Assembly (NCBI GenBank): GCA_008933615.1
Contig: WBUR01000014.1
Span: 1-64,000 of the forward strand
Length of the DNA: 64,000 bases
Source of the DNA: a bacterium
Lineage (GTDB): Bacteria > CLD3 > SB21
Direction: 5' to 3'
Shown piece by piece: positions 56,610 through 64,000 of the stretch. The position numbers and the translations under genes are program-made. The notes under the pieces were generated by a model. It had not been told where the DNA came from and did not search any database. It saw only the letters and a list, made by a program, of their open reading frames with translations. Within the stretch, counting starts at the first letter, position 1. Each line of letters begins with the position of its first letter.

Positions 56610-56623
56610 GAAAATTGAAAAAA

Positions 56624-57709
56624 ATGAAGTATCATCCGTTAAAACCACACAATACATTACCTGATTTGCCCCCGAAGGCAGAGGTTGAAACAAAAGCAAT
56701 CCTTAAGAAAGCCCTGTCGGCAAGCAGATCACTTTCTGAATTAAAGGGAGCCATCACTAATTTACCTAATCCCCTTTTGTTTGTTGACACTATCCACTTG
56801 CAGGAAGCCCGGGCCAGTTCAGCTATTGAAAATATCATTACGACTCAGGACGCGCTTTTTCAAGCCTCCGTCGCAGACAAACAAATTGAAAACCCTGCGA
56901 CAAAAGAAGTCATTCATTATAAAGACGCTTTATGGTTTGGCATAGAGCAGCTTAAAAAAAAACCGCTCCTGACTACCAATCTTTTCATTGAGATCATGCG
57001 GATCATAAAGGAAAACAGGTCTGGCATACGAAATATACCGGGAACACAATTAAAAAACCCGGTTACCGGCCTGATAATTTATACGCCGCCCGAAGGAGAA
57101 GGCATTATAAGAGATAAACTAAAAGCGTTGGAAACATTCATTAATACCGAAAACGGTATGGACCCTATGATTAAATTGGCCTTGATTCACTATCAGTTTG
57201 AAGCGATTCACCCTTTTTTTGATGGAAATGGAAGAACCGGCAGGATCATTCTTTTGCTCTATCTAAAAATTTGCGGGTTAATGGACTTGCCGGCGCTCTA
57301 TTTAAGTAGTTATATTTTGAAAAACAAAAATACATATTATGTCAACTTAAGAAATGTAACCGAAAAAAATGATTGGGAAAGCTGGATCCTTTACATGCTT
57401 GATATGATAGAGGTGACTTCTCAAAAAGGAAGAGAACGGATTGAGGAAACGAAAACATTAATGAAATCAATGGGCGGCAAGATTCAAAAAAAACTGCCTA
57501 AAATATATTCAAAAGATCTTTTGGAAATACTATTTCGGCTGCCCTACACAAAACGAAATTTTATAGAAACCGCAGGGCTGGGTAATATCAAAACCTCGGG
57601 ATCTTATTTAAAAAGTTTGGAAGAAAAAGGATTTCTTAAAAGTGTAACCGTAGGCAAAGAAAAACTTTATTTAAACTTTCAGCTGATGGAGATACTAAAA
57701 AAACAGTAG
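56624..57709 (+). CDS. Fic-family protein with C-terminal winged-helix
   Basis: 361 residues from the ATG at 56624 (an in-frame TTG at 56615 is possible). The catalytic motif HPFFDGNGRTGR starts at His196; an N-terminal self-inhibitory motif S-x-x-x-E-N lies at Ser65-Asn70 (SSAIEN). Fic proteins transfer AMP to hydroxyl residues of target proteins. The last 65 residues look like a winged helix (LLEILFRLPYTKRNFIETAG), which could bind DNA. It lies beside operator-like repeats, suggesting self-control. A chromosomal regulator or a toxin role is possible; no antitoxin gene is adjacent. Confidence 0.92.
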   Translation: MKYHPLKPHNTLPDLPPKAEVETKAILKKALSASRSLSELKGAITNLPNPLLFVDTIHLQEARASSAIENIITTQDALFQASVADKQIENPATKEVIHYKDALWFGIEQLKKKPLLTTNLFIEIMRIIKENRSGIRNIPGTQLKNPVTGLIIYTPPEGEGIIRDKLKALETFINTENGMDPMIKLALIHYQFEAIHPFFDGNGRTGRIILLLYLKICGLMDLPALYLSSYILKNKNTYYVNLRNVTEKNDWESWILYMLDMIEVTSQKGRERIEETKTLMKSMGGKIQKKLPKIYSKDLLEILFRLPYTKRNFIETAGLGNIKTSGSYLKSLEEKGFLKSVTVGKEKLYLNFQLMEILKKQ

Positions 57710-57854
57710 TCGGACGCGAAATGGACACGTTGAATTGCAGCAGAATGTGGGGTGAGTTGGTTCGAATAGTTGTCGTGTGAACTTGAAGATCATTACGTTC
57801 GTCACTTTAGACAAAATTATATGTTTATATATCATTTTTGCAAAGGAGGTTCCA

Positions 57855-58325
57855 GTGCGTTATTTTATTCCAGCTTTTGCAGCCATAATTGTGGCCTGCT
57901 TGGGATGTTCAAATCCTCATAAAGAACTAAAAACAGAGCACGATGCTCTTCGTCTGAAACATACGACCTTTAAGAAGGATCACGACAGTCTTCGTACGGA
58001 ACACCGCAACCTGAAATCTGCGCATATCGCCCTATTAACCAACGAAAAGAACCTGAACCCTTCGGTAATCTACCCGGAACATGAATTGTGGGCGCGTACA
58101 CATGACAGTCTTGCGCTTGCGCATAATGCGTTAGTTGTTGCGCACAGGGCAATAGAAGAACAGCACAAGTCGGGTAATGTGTCCGTTGAGCAAATGGAGT
58201 CTGATCACAGTCGGATGCGGGAAGAACACAAAAGAATGCAGGAGGAGCACGACCTTTGGATCGCTCAACATATCACGATGCGAGATGACCATTTAAAAGC
58301 CATGGAAGAATTAAAGAAAGAGTAG
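57855..58325 (+). CDS. Lipoprotein with histidine heptad ladder
   Basis: 156 residues from a GTG start with AGGAGG five bases upstream. The lipobox ends at Cys18 (ACLGC). The rest is a predicted long coiled coil with His exactly every seven residues in three blocks: 22, 29, 36, 43, 50, 57; then 76, 83, 90, 97, 104; then 118, 125, 132, 139, 146. The last two blocks are in register with each other, two heptads apart. The residue class at the other heptad positions is mostly Leu/Met hydrophobic. Envelope-anchored; a metal-binding or pH-sensitive rod is an idea. No known family. Confidence 0.85.
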   Translation: MRYFIPAFAAIIVACLGCSNPHKELKTEHDALRLKHTTFKKDHDSLRTEHRNLKSAHIALLTNEKNLNPSVIYPEHELWARTHDSLALAHNALVVAHRAIEEQHKSGNVSVEQMESDHSRMREEHKRMQEEHDLWIAQHITMRDDHLKAMEELKKE

Positions 58326-58418: not shown

Positions 58419-58958
58419 ATGACTAAGATGAAAATATCATTCTTGAGAAAAGACAGTCCCTTCCTTCCGTTATTCTGGATAGGGATATCTGTCATATTGT
58501 TGGTCGCCGATTACAATGCCGGCCCGTTTATCCAATTTCCGATCACTTATCTTATTCCTGTCGCTCTGGCGTCTTGGTATACCGGACGCGGTTGGGGTAT
58601 TGCATTTGCTATAGCGCTGCCTCTGGTCCGCTTGTTTTTTAATATCGCTCTGTGGACAGTCCCATGGACTTTTGTTGACGCTTCTATTAATTGTTTTATC
58701 AGAATCACCATTTTTTCCCTGCTTGCGATTCTGATAAACCGCACAGCCAGCCAATCGCGGGAATTAACCGAGGAAGTTGAAATTTTGAGCGGATTGCTGC
58801 CTATTTGTTCCTTTTGTAAAAAAATTCGTGACGATAAGCAGGAGTGGCAACCAATCGAGTCGTATATATCAAAAAGGAGCGAGGCATCATTTTCACACGG
58901 CCTGTGCCCGGAATGCGCCGAAAAGCATTACGGAGAATATCTGAGGAAGAAGTCATAG
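58419..58958 (+). CDS. Small membrane protein with C-terminal CxxC domain
   Basis: 179 residues; ATG at 58428 is an alternative start. Three or four hydrophobic segments lie between residues 18 and 108. The cytoplasmic tail has LLPICSFCKKIRDD (two Cys, CxxC) and, later, HGLCPECAEKHY (CxxC), likely a zinc-binding unit. This tail is found at the end of PAS/GAF/receiver proteins in many bacteria, so signalling is inferred. Sensor domains are absent here, and the membrane part may itself sense. Confidence 0.8.
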   Translation: MTKMKISFLRKDSPFLPLFWIGISVILLVADYNAGPFIQFPITYLIPVALASWYTGRGWGIAFAIALPLVRLFFNIALWTVPWTFVDASINCFIRITIFSLLAILINRTASQSRELTEEVEILSGLLPICSFCKKIRDDKQEWQPIESYISKRSEASFSHGLCPECAEKHYGEYLRKKS

Positions 58959-59211: not shown

Positions 59212-60825
59212 ATGAATCCCATGCGTCTACACCGAATCGTTGTTGTAATAAGTTTATGCGGCTTGGTAATCAGTTCATGCGGAAAATCCGAAAAGATTTC
59301 CGATGATGCTAATTTAAAACCCAAATACGGCGGCACGCTCGTTTACACCAAGAACAGCCCGCCCGTAACGCTCGATCCAGCGCTTACCACAGAAACGGAA
59401 TCCACGATTCCCTGCGATAATATTTTCGATCCATTGGTACAGCTCCAGCTCGGCAAAACGGGCATTGCGCCGGCGCTCGCAAAAACTTGGGATATTTCCA
59501 AAGATGGACTGGTCTACACCTTTCATTTGCGCACGGGCGTTACATTTCACGACGGCACGCCATTCACCGCCAAAGCGGTTCTCTTCAGTTTCAACCGTCA
59601 GCGCGATCCGAAACACCCCTTCCATCAGGGCGGCGACAAATTCGAGTACTGGAAAAACTTCTCGATGAATGAAATGATCAAAGATATTAAGGCGGTGAAC
59701 GATTCAACAGTACAGTTCACGCTATCCAGCGCCAACGCAACTTTTCTGTATATTCTCAGCATGCAGTTCACCGCTATCGTGAGCCCTGACGGTATGAAAA
59801 AATACGGCACTCAGTTCTATGCCCACCCGATCGGAACCGGCGCGTTTCATTTTGTATCGTGGCAGAGCGATGATAATCTGATACTCGCGGCAAATACGGA
59901 ATACTGGGACGGGAGGCCGTATCTTGATACCTTGATATTCAAAGCGGTTAATAAATCGGAAGAACGGGTTTCCAGATTGCTTTCAGGTGAATACGACATG
60001 ATCGAATCGCCGACGCCGGAAAAGATCTCCGAGATCGAAAACAATAAGAACCTCAAAGTTTTCAAACAGCCCGGCGTCAACATTGCCTACATGGCGATGA
60101 ATATGAACAAAAAACCTTTTTCGGACGAACGCGTGCGCAAAGCGATCGTGTATGCGGTTAACCGCGAGAAACTCGTGGAACAAGTGTATGGAGAATTCGG
60201 GCGTCCCGCGAAAAATCCTATTCCGCCGATGTTATTAGGATATAATGAAGAAATTCGTTTCACACCGTACGATCCTGAAAAAGCAAAACAATTACTCGCA
60301 GAGGCAGGCTTTCCCGACGGTTTTAAAACGAAGCTTTGGTATATGCCCATCGCGCGGGAATATATGCCTGACGGTAAAAGAACGGCTGAACTCATCGAAG
60401 CAGATCTGAAAGCGGTTGGCATCGAAGCTGAAATTTCAACCTATCCATGGCACGAATATCTTGAAAAACTTTACCGCGGCGAACATGAGATGGCGATCAT
60501 GGGCTGGATTGCCGACATTCCCGATCCGGATAATTTTTTCTACCCGCTGCTGGACAAAACGGTCGCGGAAATCGTTCCGTCCAACAACATTGCCTTTTAT
60601 AAAGGTGAGGATATGCATCAGCTTTTGCTCCAGGGCAAGTTAGCCACGGATTTGGTTGCACGCAGTAAGATCTATAGAGACGCTTGCGCCGTATTCAACC
60701 GTGATCTTCCGTGGTTCACGATCGCGCATTCCGTCGTGATCGTTCCGATGCAATCGTACGTAATGAATTTTCAGCCGTATGCAAGTTACGCGCGTAAATT
60801 TAATACCGTTTGGCTAAACAGATAG
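59212..60825 (+). CDS. Peptide-binding lipoprotein, ABC family 5, copy 1
   Basis: 537 residues. The lipobox ISSC places Cys at residue 23. The SBP_bac_5 fold is marked by LDPALTTETES, WDISKDGLVYTFHLR and FHDGTPFTA; the C-terminal lobe holds YMPDGKRTAELIEADLKAVG. Such proteins deliver oligopeptides, dipeptides or nickel to an ABC permease. GGAGG precedes the ATG. First of three tandem paralogues, 36 bp from the second, with no permease gene in view. Confidence 0.93.
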   Translation: MNPMRLHRIVVVISLCGLVISSCGKSEKISDDANLKPKYGGTLVYTKNSPPVTLDPALTTETESTIPCDNIFDPLVQLQLGKTGIAPALAKTWDISKDGLVYTFHLRTGVTFHDGTPFTAKAVLFSFNRQRDPKHPFHQGGDKFEYWKNFSMNEMIKDIKAVNDSTVQFTLSSANATFLYILSMQFTAIVSPDGMKKYGTQFYAHPIGTGAFHFVSWQSDDNLILAANTEYWDGRPYLDTLIFKAVNKSEERVSRLLSGEYDMIESPTPEKISEIENNKNLKVFKQPGVNIAYMAMNMNKKPFSDERVRKAIVYAVNREKLVEQVYGEFGRPAKNPIPPMLLGYNEEIRFTPYDPEKAKQLLAEAGFPDGFKTKLWYMPIAREYMPDGKRTAELIEADLKAVGIEAEISTYPWHEYLEKLYRGEHEMAIMGWIADIPDPDNFFYPLLDKTVAEIVPSNNIAFYKGEDMHQLLLQGKLATDLVARSKIYRDACAVFNRDLPWFTIAHSVVIVPMQSYVMNFQPYASYARKFNTVWLNR

Positions 60826-60861
60826 AATTCAAGTTTCATCATTAAACAAGGATATAGAGAT

Positions 60862-62469
60862 ATGATCACAAGAAAACTTTCATTTATCCTATCGGCTTGC
60901 ATCGCCGTATGGAGCCTCTCATGCGGACCTGAGAAAAAAACAAATACGGTAAGCGACGACGCTAAACCGGAATACGGAGGAACATTTATTTATGCTAAGA
61001 ACGGTCCTCCAATCACGCTTGATCCCGCGCTCACGAAAGAAACGGAGTCAACCGTCATCGCGGACAATATTTTTGACGGCTTGGTACAGCAGCGCGCCGG
61101 GAAAATCGCAATCGATCCATGCCTTGCAAAATCATGGGATATCTCCAAAGACGGAAAAATATATACATTCCATTTACGAAATGGCGTCAAATTTCATGAC
61201 GGCACTCCTTTCACGGCAGGCTCCGTTCTGTTCTCGTTCGATCGACAGGGCAACCCCAAACATCCTTTTCACGGCAAGGCCGATTTTGATTTCTGGCGGA
61301 GTTTTAATATGGATAATATCATCAAGAGCATTAAAGCGCCGGATGACTCCACAATAATATTTACACTGACAAGCCCGGATGCAACGTTCCTTAATATTCT
61401 ATCCATGAACTTTCTTCAGATAATCAGTCCGGAGGCAATGAAAAAATTCGGCGCCGATGCGTACAAGAACCCGGTTGGAACCGGCGCATTCAAATTTGTA
61501 AGCTGGAGCGATGACGGAAGCGTGGTGACGGTGGCAAATGAGCATTATTGGAACGGCAGACCGTATCTCGATACGCTGATATTCAAGCCCTTTCCCGATG
61601 CGCGTAAGCGCTGGCAAGCTCTTAAAGAAGGCGCAGTCAGTATGATGAGCGTCCCGGATCAGGCCGATCTGGCAGAGATACAGAATACCGCTGGAGTAAA
61701 ATCTTCGCAACAACCCGGGGTCAATGTCGCATACCTTGCGATGAATATGAATAAGAAGCCGTTTGATGATTTGAAAGTTCGCCAGGCGATCGTGTATGCC
61801 ATCGACCGGGAAAAACTGGTAAAAGCTGTCCTGTCACAACTCGGTCGGCCGGCCAAAAATCCAATCCCTCCAAATCTGCTGGGTTACAATGAAGAAATTC
61901 GCTTCACTCCCTTCGATCCTGCAAAGGCTAAACAGCTTCTTACGGAAGCCGGTTTTCCGAACGGGTTCAAGAGTTCGCTCTGGACATTGCCCGTTTCACG
62001 CGAATATATGCCTAATGGAAAACTTGCCGCTGAACTTATCCAGGCCGATCTGAAAGCGGTGGGAATTGAAACCGAAATAATCATACCGGAATTTCAGGAA
62101 TATCTGAGACGTCGCGGCAATGGCGAGCATGAACTGCTTATCTCCGGATGGGTTGGCGATGTTCCCGATCCGCATTTCTTTTTCTATCCATTGCTTGATA
62201 AGGTGAGCGCCGAACAACGGCCATCGAATAATGCGGCATTTTACAAAAGCCAGGAAATGCACGACCTGATCGTCAAAGGAAAAGAAACTTTCGATCCGGT
62301 GGAGAGAAGCAATATTTACAAGAAGGCTTGTGAGGTTTTTAATAAAGACCTGCCGTGGTTTACGATAGCGCATGCCGTCGCCATCGTTCCGATGCGCGAC
62401 CACGTGATGAATTTTCTCATGCACGCAAGTTCCGTTAGAAAATTCGACAAAGTCTGGCTTAAAAAATAG
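60862..62469 (+). CDS. Peptide-binding lipoprotein, ABC family 5, copy 2
   Basis: 535 residues, lipobox WSLSC (Cys21). It aligns with copies 1 and 3 over the whole length, sharing for instance KNGPPITLDPALTKETES and PTKNPIPP-like phrases (AKNPIPPNLLGYNEEIRFTP). The ligand-lobe residues differ between copies, so each may prefer another peptide. The downstream gap to copy 3 (62470-62706) holds a short REP-like remnant. Confidence 0.93.
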   Translation: MITRKLSFILSACIAVWSLSCGPEKKTNTVSDDAKPEYGGTFIYAKNGPPITLDPALTKETESTVIADNIFDGLVQQRAGKIAIDPCLAKSWDISKDGKIYTFHLRNGVKFHDGTPFTAGSVLFSFDRQGNPKHPFHGKADFDFWRSFNMDNIIKSIKAPDDSTIIFTLTSPDATFLNILSMNFLQIISPEAMKKFGADAYKNPVGTGAFKFVSWSDDGSVVTVANEHYWNGRPYLDTLIFKPFPDARKRWQALKEGAVSMMSVPDQADLAEIQNTAGVKSSQQPGVNVAYLAMNMNKKPFDDLKVRQAIVYAIDREKLVKAVLSQLGRPAKNPIPPNLLGYNEEIRFTPFDPAKAKQLLTEAGFPNGFKSSLWTLPVSREYMPNGKLAAELIQADLKAVGIETEIIIPEFQEYLRRRGNGEHELLISGWVGDVPDPHFFFYPLLDKVSAEQRPSNNAAFYKSQEMHDLIVKGKETFDPVERSNIYKKACEVFNKDLPWFTIAHAVAIVPMRDHVMNFLMHASSVRKFDKVWLKK

Positions 62470-62539
62470 CCGGTAACCGTTAAGCCGCAAATGGTCACAA
62501 ATTTTTACAAAGAAAAAAAGTCTGTTTAATAGCATGTAT

Positions 62540-62560
62540 GTCATGCTGTGCCTGTCGAAG
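62540..62560. repeat. Possible remnant of the fold-back element
   Basis: GTCATGCTGTGCCTGTCGAAG resembles the inner arm of the 154-bp elements (GTCATGGTTCGACAAG and its partner). One short fragment only, so tentative. Confidence 0.3.
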
Positions 62561-62706
62561 TGTTATAAGTAAATGGACTTTTTCTTCAACTTCTGTTCTT
62601 AAATAATTCATATGTGAATCTGTGGCAGTTCTATTTTAGTTCGGAACTACCGTGCTCTCACTGCAACTTATTTGTGCGGTTCGATTATTCAGAAAGGAGA
62701 AGCGTC

Positions 62707-64000
62707 TTGAAACATCAAACATTTTATCAATGGATTTTTATCTGCACGATCGGTTTATCGCTAATCGGCTGCGGGGGAGAAAAAAAAGATTCAGCCTCCG
62801 GCGATAATTCCAAACCGGAATACGGCGGCACGTTGATCTACGCGAAGAACGGCCCGCCGATCTCGCTCGATCCTGCCGCAACAAAAGAAACTGAATCGTC
62901 GGTCATTGTTGCCAGCATTTTCGATGGGCTCGTAGAACAACAAGCAGGTAAAGCGGCGATAAATCCTGCACTGGCAAAATCATGGAATATTTCAAAGGAC
63001 GGTTTGACTTACACATTCAATCTCCGATCCGGAGTCACTTTCCATGACGGCACGCCTTTCAACGCCGATGCGGTATTGTTCAGTTTTAACAGGCAAAAAG
63101 ACCCAAAACATCCCGGATATACTACGCGGGACGCATTTGAATACTGGAAAAATTTCGATATGGATAAAGTGGTGAGAACTATAGCCGCAGTTAACGATTC
63201 GACGGTTGAGTTCAAATTAAGCAAACCGGATGCGACCTTTTTGAATTTGCTCACGATCAATTTTGCCGCGATCGTCAGTCCTGAAGCAGTTAAAAAATAC
63301 AAAAATGATTTTTATAAAAATCCCGTCGGAACGGGCGCATTTAAATTTTCAAGCTGGAATGACGACGGATCGGTGGTATGCGTCGCATTTGAAAATTTCA
63401 TGAACGGCCGGCCTTATGCAGATACGTTGGTTTTTAAACCCATTTCTGACGGCCATCAGCGGTGGCTGGAATTGAAAGCGGGCACTGTGAATATGATGTC
63501 TACGCCGGGACAAGCCGATCTTGCAGAAATTGAAAATACATCCGGCGTCAAAATGGCAAAGCAGCACGGCATCAATGTCGCGTACCTGGCGATGAATATG
63601 AGCAAAAAACCTTTTACGGATCTGCGTGTTCGCCAGGCTATCGTTTATGCAATCAATCGTGAACACTTGGTCAAAGAAGTGTACGGCCAACTCGGCCGCG
63701 CTGCAAAAAACCCCATTCCGCCGGTGTTACTTGGGTATAACGAAGAGATCCGATTTACGCCATATAATCCGGAGAAATCCAAAGAACTTCTGAAAGAGGC
63801 TGGGTTCCCGAATGGCTTTAAAACCAAACTCCTGAGCTTACCTATCGTACGAGAATATATGCCCAACGGACAGCTGACAGCTGAATTCATTCAAAAGGAA
63901 TTAAAAGCCGTCGGCATTGAAGTGGAAATCGTGTCGTACGAATGGAAAGAAGTTCTTGCCCGGCGGGAGCGTGGTGAACATGAACTCGCGTTAGCCGGCT
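62707..64000 (+). CDS. Peptide-binding lipoprotein, ABC family 5, copy 3, partial
   Basis: 431 codons visible from a TTG with AAAGGAGA upstream; the frame is open to the right edge. Lipobox LIGC (Cys22). Clear family marks: KNGPPISLDPAATKETES, WNISKDGLTYTFNLR and FHDGTPFNADAVLFSF. Closest in wording to copy 2. The TTG start and missing C-terminus mean the full gene should be read with downstream sequence. Confidence 0.9.
   Translation, partial: MKHQTFYQWIFICTIGLSLIGCGGEKKDSASGDNSKPEYGGTLIYAKNGPPISLDPAATKETESSVIVASIFDGLVEQQAGKAAINPALAKSWNISKDGLTYTFNLRSGVTFHDGTPFNADAVLFSFNRQKDPKHPGYTTRDAFEYWKNFDMDKVVRTIAAVNDSTVEFKLSKPDATFLNLLTINFAAIVSPEAVKKYKNDFYKNPVGTGAFKFSSWNDDGSVVCVAFENFMNGRPYADTLVFKPISDGHQRWLELKAGTVNMMSTPGQADLAEIENTSGVKMAKQHGINVAYLAMNMSKKPFTDLRVRQAIVYAINREHLVKEVYGQLGRAAKNPIPPVLLGYNEEIRFTPYNPEKSKELLKEAGFPNGFKTKLLSLPIVREYMPNGQLTAEFIQKELKAVGIEVEIVSYEWKEVLARRERGEHELALAG

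Follow-up and report, generated by a model that had tools for sequence, protein, structure and literature searches.

The window analysed here, a 64,000-nucleotide stretch of DNA, contains on its forward strand an entire gene for a 156-aa lipoprotein with histidines at heptad spacing (57855-58325 including the stop codon; coding part 57855-58322). The gene starts with GTG and is preceded by a Shine-Dalgarno-like AAAGGAGG (57842-57849, +), as read from the sequence; its ortholog (L003) in G002, the second genome of the window's genus, has a similar ribosome-binding context and also starts with GTG. The first codons (57855-57908, +) encode a signal peptide and a lipobox whose lipidated residue is Cys18 (SGC in the ortholog), with Cys15 as an alternative possible in the window copy. 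Mature numbering is window residue minus 17, and the mature Cys1 is conserved in at least 90% of the members of alignment A2, in agreement with the earlier note, which had called the product a lipoprotein. Three blocks of His follow on the same strand. Block 1 (residues 22, 29, 36, 43, 50 and 57; 57918-58025) and block 2 (residues 76, 83, 90, 97 and 104; 58080-58166), the best conserved of the three, are defined by sequence and conservation, and block 3 (residues 118, 125, 132, 139 and 146; 58206-58292), in which Met occupies H+3 in three of five cases, by sequence. The gene is flanked by a Fic-domain gene just upstream (56615-57709, +), which encodes a SoFic-like Fic adenylyltransferase (411 bits to NF046030, cut-off 550) and is not at the same place in G002, and by a gene for a 179-aa DUF4118-like membrane protein downstream (58419-58955, +; weak DUF4118 match). 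The latter neighbour is kept in G002 (L021), and its product ends in a zinc-ribbon-like tail, CSFCKKIRDD...SHGLCPECAEKHY. Three tandem paralogous genes for ABC-type substrate-binding lipoproteins occupy 59212-64000 (+) and are tandem in G002 (L021) too.

The earlier note had described sixteen His in three blocks of exact heptad spacing, which proved correct to the residue. The 16 His fall into blocks of six, five and five, and the spacing is seven in all 13 adjacent within-block pairs. Shuffled sequences gave on average 1.65 and at most 8 His pairs at i,i+7, and none of 100,000 shuffles reached the observed 13. Blocks 2 and 3 are in the same register (104 to 118 is 14 residues), and block 1 is offset from them (57 to 76 is 19 residues). 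Comparison of the window gene with its G002 ortholog gave a dN/dS of 0.117/0.708 (= 0.17) with all 16 His kept, and the gene is under purifying selection. An origin of the heptads as a DNA tandem repeat was ruled out because the codons vary between heptads and dN/dS is 0.17. Searches against Pfam and NCBIfam placed the protein in no family and returned only sub-threshold coiled-coil noise; a weak Pfam match to WXG100 (16.1 bits, gathering cut-off 27.3) was rejected as membership. No Cys was found in the mature core.

The genome also encodes a paralog, 25% identical, that keeps the His of blocks 2 and 3 (five, a gap of 14 and five) and has lost those of block 1. The last of the paralog's block-2/3 His aligns to Tyr in alignment A1 and is kept by G002-like members. 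Adjoining the paralog is a gene (L020:9432-9899, -) whose exported 156-aa product (GMSNGIHLMIKT..VHLGPAWYI) matches nothing in Pfam. A scan for HxxM heptads across 84,980 species genomes gave many false matches from simple repeats, and many loci were dropped after inspection of their ORFs as short-repeat DNA read in frame. The scan also gave a well-defined group of exported proteins that follow the plan of the window protein, namely Cys, block 1, a variable hinge, block 2, a short turn (often S/A-G) and block 3. This plan was found in Aquimarina, Christiangramia, Robertkochia, Cyclobacteriaceae and other Bacteroidota and in one proteobacterial MAG. The members are exported, mostly with a lipobox Cys, and in the proteobacterial protein (L095) a plain signal peptide takes its place. 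A query shuffled within each heptad position of each block, with every His fixed, was used to assess homology (100 shuffles): for most members the real score exceeds 97-100% of the shuffles, and L056 and L065 fail. Because these register-preserving shuffles score lower, most members are homologous to the window protein and not just alike in period. The search of other genomes for the pattern, which the earlier note had proposed, thus yielded a homologous family that is real and widespread and, it appears, has no name yet, with members in Bacteroidota, one proteobacterium and the window's own small lineage. The note had known of no described family with the pattern, and our literature search, with subscription papers outside its reach, likewise found no description of one.

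The distribution was surveyed with a family profile built from A2 (19 members). The family is rare overall; among 327 sampled genera the profile matched the window's genus only, apart from weak repeat-like matches. Matches were patchy in the class Bacteroidia (16 of 295 genomes, about half of them genuine by inspection) and in Flavobacteriales (5/198), and they were commoner than in the other samples in the order sampled around a Cytophagales genome (36/391). A protein-based scan of genome contigs confirmed no relatives. Weak matches in other phyla (G347, G268, G360 and G230) were attributed to repeat artefacts or to coiled coils of other kinds, and a count of six-His heptads in 386 genomes was abandoned as a census, its matches being mostly DNA tandem repeats. 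Separately, two long Acidobacteriota proteins (L139 and L159, Thermoanaerobaculales), BlaR1/M56-peptidase-like by eye, carry a tail of IHxDMEPxHEQMEAIH-type repeats with 7-residue spacing, a second use of His heptads that is apparently unrelated to the lipoprotein family.

Conservation was assessed in 48 homologues found by profile search and not selected by His pattern, because a pattern-selected set is biased towards the block-3 His; the profile is His-rich itself, and some bias to His-rich members stays in this set. Each of the six columns with the highest conservation is a heptad His (mature 59, 115, 73, 66, 26 and 12), and heptad His make up 14 of the 17 best columns, the other three being a Leu at H+3, the turn Gly and a Met at H+3. 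Outside the heptad columns His reaches at most 6%, bar two columns, of which one extends the register and the other lies in the hinge. Loss of the His positions from close homologues, which the earlier note had named as counting against its reading, was therefore not what we found: all 16 are kept in the ortholog, and heptad His make up most of the top columns among the homologues. Across the family, heptad position a is His in 75% and position d is Met, Leu, Ile, Phe or Val in 91%, Met being the commonest d residue (37%). Polar residues predominate at b, c, f and g, with Glu or Asp frequent at g, and e is partly hydrophobic. Since His occupies a and aliphatic residues or Met occupy d, the His should lie in the packed core face together with d rather than in an exposed stripe. 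The alignment of the His on one helical face, as the earlier note had it, thus holds, but the face is that of the core. These His might be a structural choice only, a polar core that confers specificity on a bundle that does something else, for example bind a partner protein in the envelope. The window context offers no metal hint, and the end His are replaced by Ile, Leu, Lys or Asp in some distant homologues, as such a role would allow. The His are, however, conserved far above any other residue, the d hydrophobics included, and we regard this explanation as very improbable because neutral packing would conserve d first.

AlphaFold2 run on A2 predicted three helices in the window protein (pLDDT 86, pTM 0.74), all encoded on the + strand: helix 1 at residues 21-63 (mature 4-46; 57915-58043), helix 2 at residues 74-105 (mature 57-88; 58074-58169) and helix 3 at residues 111-155 (mature 94-138; 58185-58319). 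A homologue with 33% identity was likewise predicted to form three helices (3-48, 55-91 and 97-144; pLDDT 89, pTM 0.76), the input alignments of the two models being shallow (19 and 13 rows). The window chain has two predicted breaks at Pro/Gly, and indels in A2 occur only at the breaks and at the two ends of the chain. Foldseek against the PDB gave no confident match (no E below 0.001). The best superpositions were compact up-down bundles: 8d9o (TM 0.58), 5mx5 (TM 0.62) and, for the 33%-identical homologue, the designed metal/heme bundles 6z0c (TM 0.59) and 8d9p (TM 0.55) as well as 9rgw, a designed single chain that forms an antiparallel three-helix bundle (0.55 by target length).

These models bear on the rod or fibre that the earlier note had envisaged. 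Such a rod would be one long coiled coil of parallel strands, perhaps trimeric, with the His lines running lengthwise, and would stiffen or space the envelope. Heptads with an a/d core on a lipid anchor are indeed what coiled-coil envelope lipoproteins have. The window protein nevertheless differs from a murein lipoprotein-like rod, which is a single continuous, trimeric helix, in its three predicted helices, seen in the models of both members; the two Pro/Gly breaks, the position of the A2 indels and the compact bundles among the Foldseek matches also speak against a rod, which we now hold to be improbable. Because His sits at core position a, the His lines should be turned towards one another within a bundle, not run along the outside of a fibre. 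If the bundle runs up-down-up, the three lines would by inference meet in layers. Antiparallel layers agree weakly with the way in which His co-occur among homologues (mean phi 0.31-0.38), a signal that is confounded by relatedness and is no more than suggestive of the register; in mature numbering these layers would be 12/87/101, 19/80/108, 26/73/115, 33/66/122 and 40/59/129. The register derived from hairpin geometry and that from co-occurrence are one heptad apart, and either would give at least four three-His layers.

The best matches of a profile search of the PDB were the designed pH-responsive filaments DpHF7, DpHF18 and DpHF19 (8ub3, 8uao and 8ubg; E 2.8e-4 to 0.004), which resemble the window protein in having helical subunits with buried His layers. 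The filaments are artificial, and in their subunits buried three-His networks, held by Asn/Thr networks, switch over 0.3 pH unit (PMC11286511). As evidence of homology the matches were rejected and judged convergent because the best targets are designed proteins. They do lend some weight to a pH-responsive bundle, in which the core His would pack at neutral pH and push apart when protonated, making the protein an envelope pH sensor or switch to which metal is incidental. But the DpHF networks need partner Asn/Thr, and no such conserved residues occur in the 48 homologues; the E-values come from shared heptad composition, and the genes beside the relatives concern metals, not pH. A pH switch is thus an unlikely explanation in our view.

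For metal binding, which the earlier note had suggested alongside a pH response as a possibility and which is the reading that we prefer, the genomic neighbourhood of the family is informative. In 19 homologue-bearing genomes, a CobW-type GTPase lies within 8 kb in four (expected 0.07, p 5e-7), a CDF transporter in three (expected 0.13) and one or the other in seven (expected 0.20, p 5e-10), statistics that are post hoc, as CobW and CDF were chosen after inspection of the neighbours. Four loci added after the link was noticed have neither CobW nor CDF nearby. In a later set, seven of 40 loci (at least two of them related) have CobW and most have none, against 0.12-0.42 loci expected at an assumed 1.1-4 copies per genome, and three have a Fur-family gene. 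The full-length CobW neighbours at L218, L222, L223, L269 and L282 score 547-571 bits to the ZigA zinc metallochaperone, below the cut-off of 600. One locus (L226) combines CobW, two NicO, HMA, HupE/UreJ and Fur within 8 kb. In other genomes, then, the family gene is near ZigA/CobW, CDF, Fur-family and TonB receptor genes far above chance. Zur (zinc) regulons typically include TonB receptors and COG0523 GTPases (PMC6103462). Neither the window gene nor its paralog has metal genes nearby, the paralog lying beside non-metal genes, and therefore the metal inference is limited for the window organism.

Six loci (L212, L214, L215, L216, L280 and L283) share a conserved cassette of a TonB receptor, an outer-membrane barrel and a Pfam-less lipoprotein, joined in some of them by a small His/Cys-rich protein (HxxxHxCxxC). 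The cassette receptor is weakly similar to those for hemin and to ZnuD, and the cassette looks like an uncharacterised metal-uptake operon. At L269 and L286, membrane proteins of ~135 aa that by eye resemble the MerC type are encoded near CobW and the His-heptad gene.

The metal might also be Ag+ or Cu+, held by HxxM motifs in a sponge that, like SilE, is disordered without metal. SilE binds Ag+ by His and Met, is disordered as apoprotein, carries HxxMxxxHxxM and has been proposed to act as a sponge (PMC5008109). The window protein resembles SilE/PcoE in being exported and His-rich with conserved His, in repeating HxxM in block 3 and, as a family, in the prevalence of Met at d. It differs in its exact three-block heptads with runs of five or six, in its predicted folded state and in the Leu-type d residues of two of its three blocks, H+3 in blocks 1 and 2 being Leu, Phe, Ile, Trp or Gly rather than Met. 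No SilE/PcoE model was matched in NCBIfam, and no sil, pco or cus genes were recognised beside the family loci, whose neighbours are of the Zn/Ni/Co type instead. We therefore consider a sponge of this kind improbable as well.

We propose instead, with a probability of roughly 0.58, that the protein is a lipid-anchored three-helix bundle with a ladder of His that binds or buffers a divalent metal, most likely zinc, in the periplasm. The His pattern, its conservation, the a/d core and the gene neighbourhoods of relatives are observed, the three-helix fold is predicted by modelling, and the exact His layers, metal binding, the identity of the metal and the role as buffer or relay are inferred. 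After export and lipid anchoring, the three helices would pack up-down-up into a single bundle, each turning its His line (position a) to the core in alternation with Leu/Met layers (position d). The His of the three helices would then stack about one heptad (10 angstrom) apart to form four or five three-His sites, each of which could accommodate a divalent metal, zinc being the likeliest and Ni, Co or Cu(II) possible. Tethered to the membrane, such a bundle may serve as a high-capacity periplasmic metal buffer or relay that takes up metal from outer-membrane receptors and passes it on or holds the excess, exchanging it with receptors, transporters or chaperones.

Designed His3 bundles usually carry one His3 site each. 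They are artificial, whereas four or five sites would be present in one natural chain according to the model of the window protein. In designed three-stranded coiled coils, a Co(II)/Zn(II) His3 site is formed in the helical core by one His per helix (PMC13262294). Csp proteins are four-helix bundles that form tetramers and bind Cu(I) in a Cys core (PMC10155185). Csp1 and Csp3 are similar to the window protein in that one metal-ligand residue, present many times, lines the core of a helical bundle, and Csp1 is exported; the window protein, in contrast, has three predicted helices, a His core without Cys and a lipid anchor, and shows no sequence match to them. By analogy, it may work like the Csp bundles, with His for Cys and three helices for four, and like repeated His3 sites, as a member of neither group. 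ZinT, ZnuA and AztD have folds unrelated to that of the window protein. They show no sequence match to it; they are exported proteins with a proposed role in acquiring or passing zinc and are Zur-linked in some species (PMC6103462; for AztD, a separate source).

Bacteria store copper in Cys-lined helical bundles and trap silver or copper in His/Met sponges. To our knowledge, no comparable dedicated zinc reservoir has been established in the envelope. It is conceivable, at somewhat less than even odds, that the family described here, as natural, envelope-anchored, single-chain three-helix bundles with four or five stacked His3 sites that are linked to zinc uptake in several bacterial groups, represents the first dedicated high-capacity periplasmic zinc buffer built in this way. 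The occurrence of a natural His-ladder family beside zinc-handling genes in several lineages makes an envelope zinc reservoir directly testable. Protein designers, who have so far built stacked His3 sites by hand, would also gain a natural template from it.
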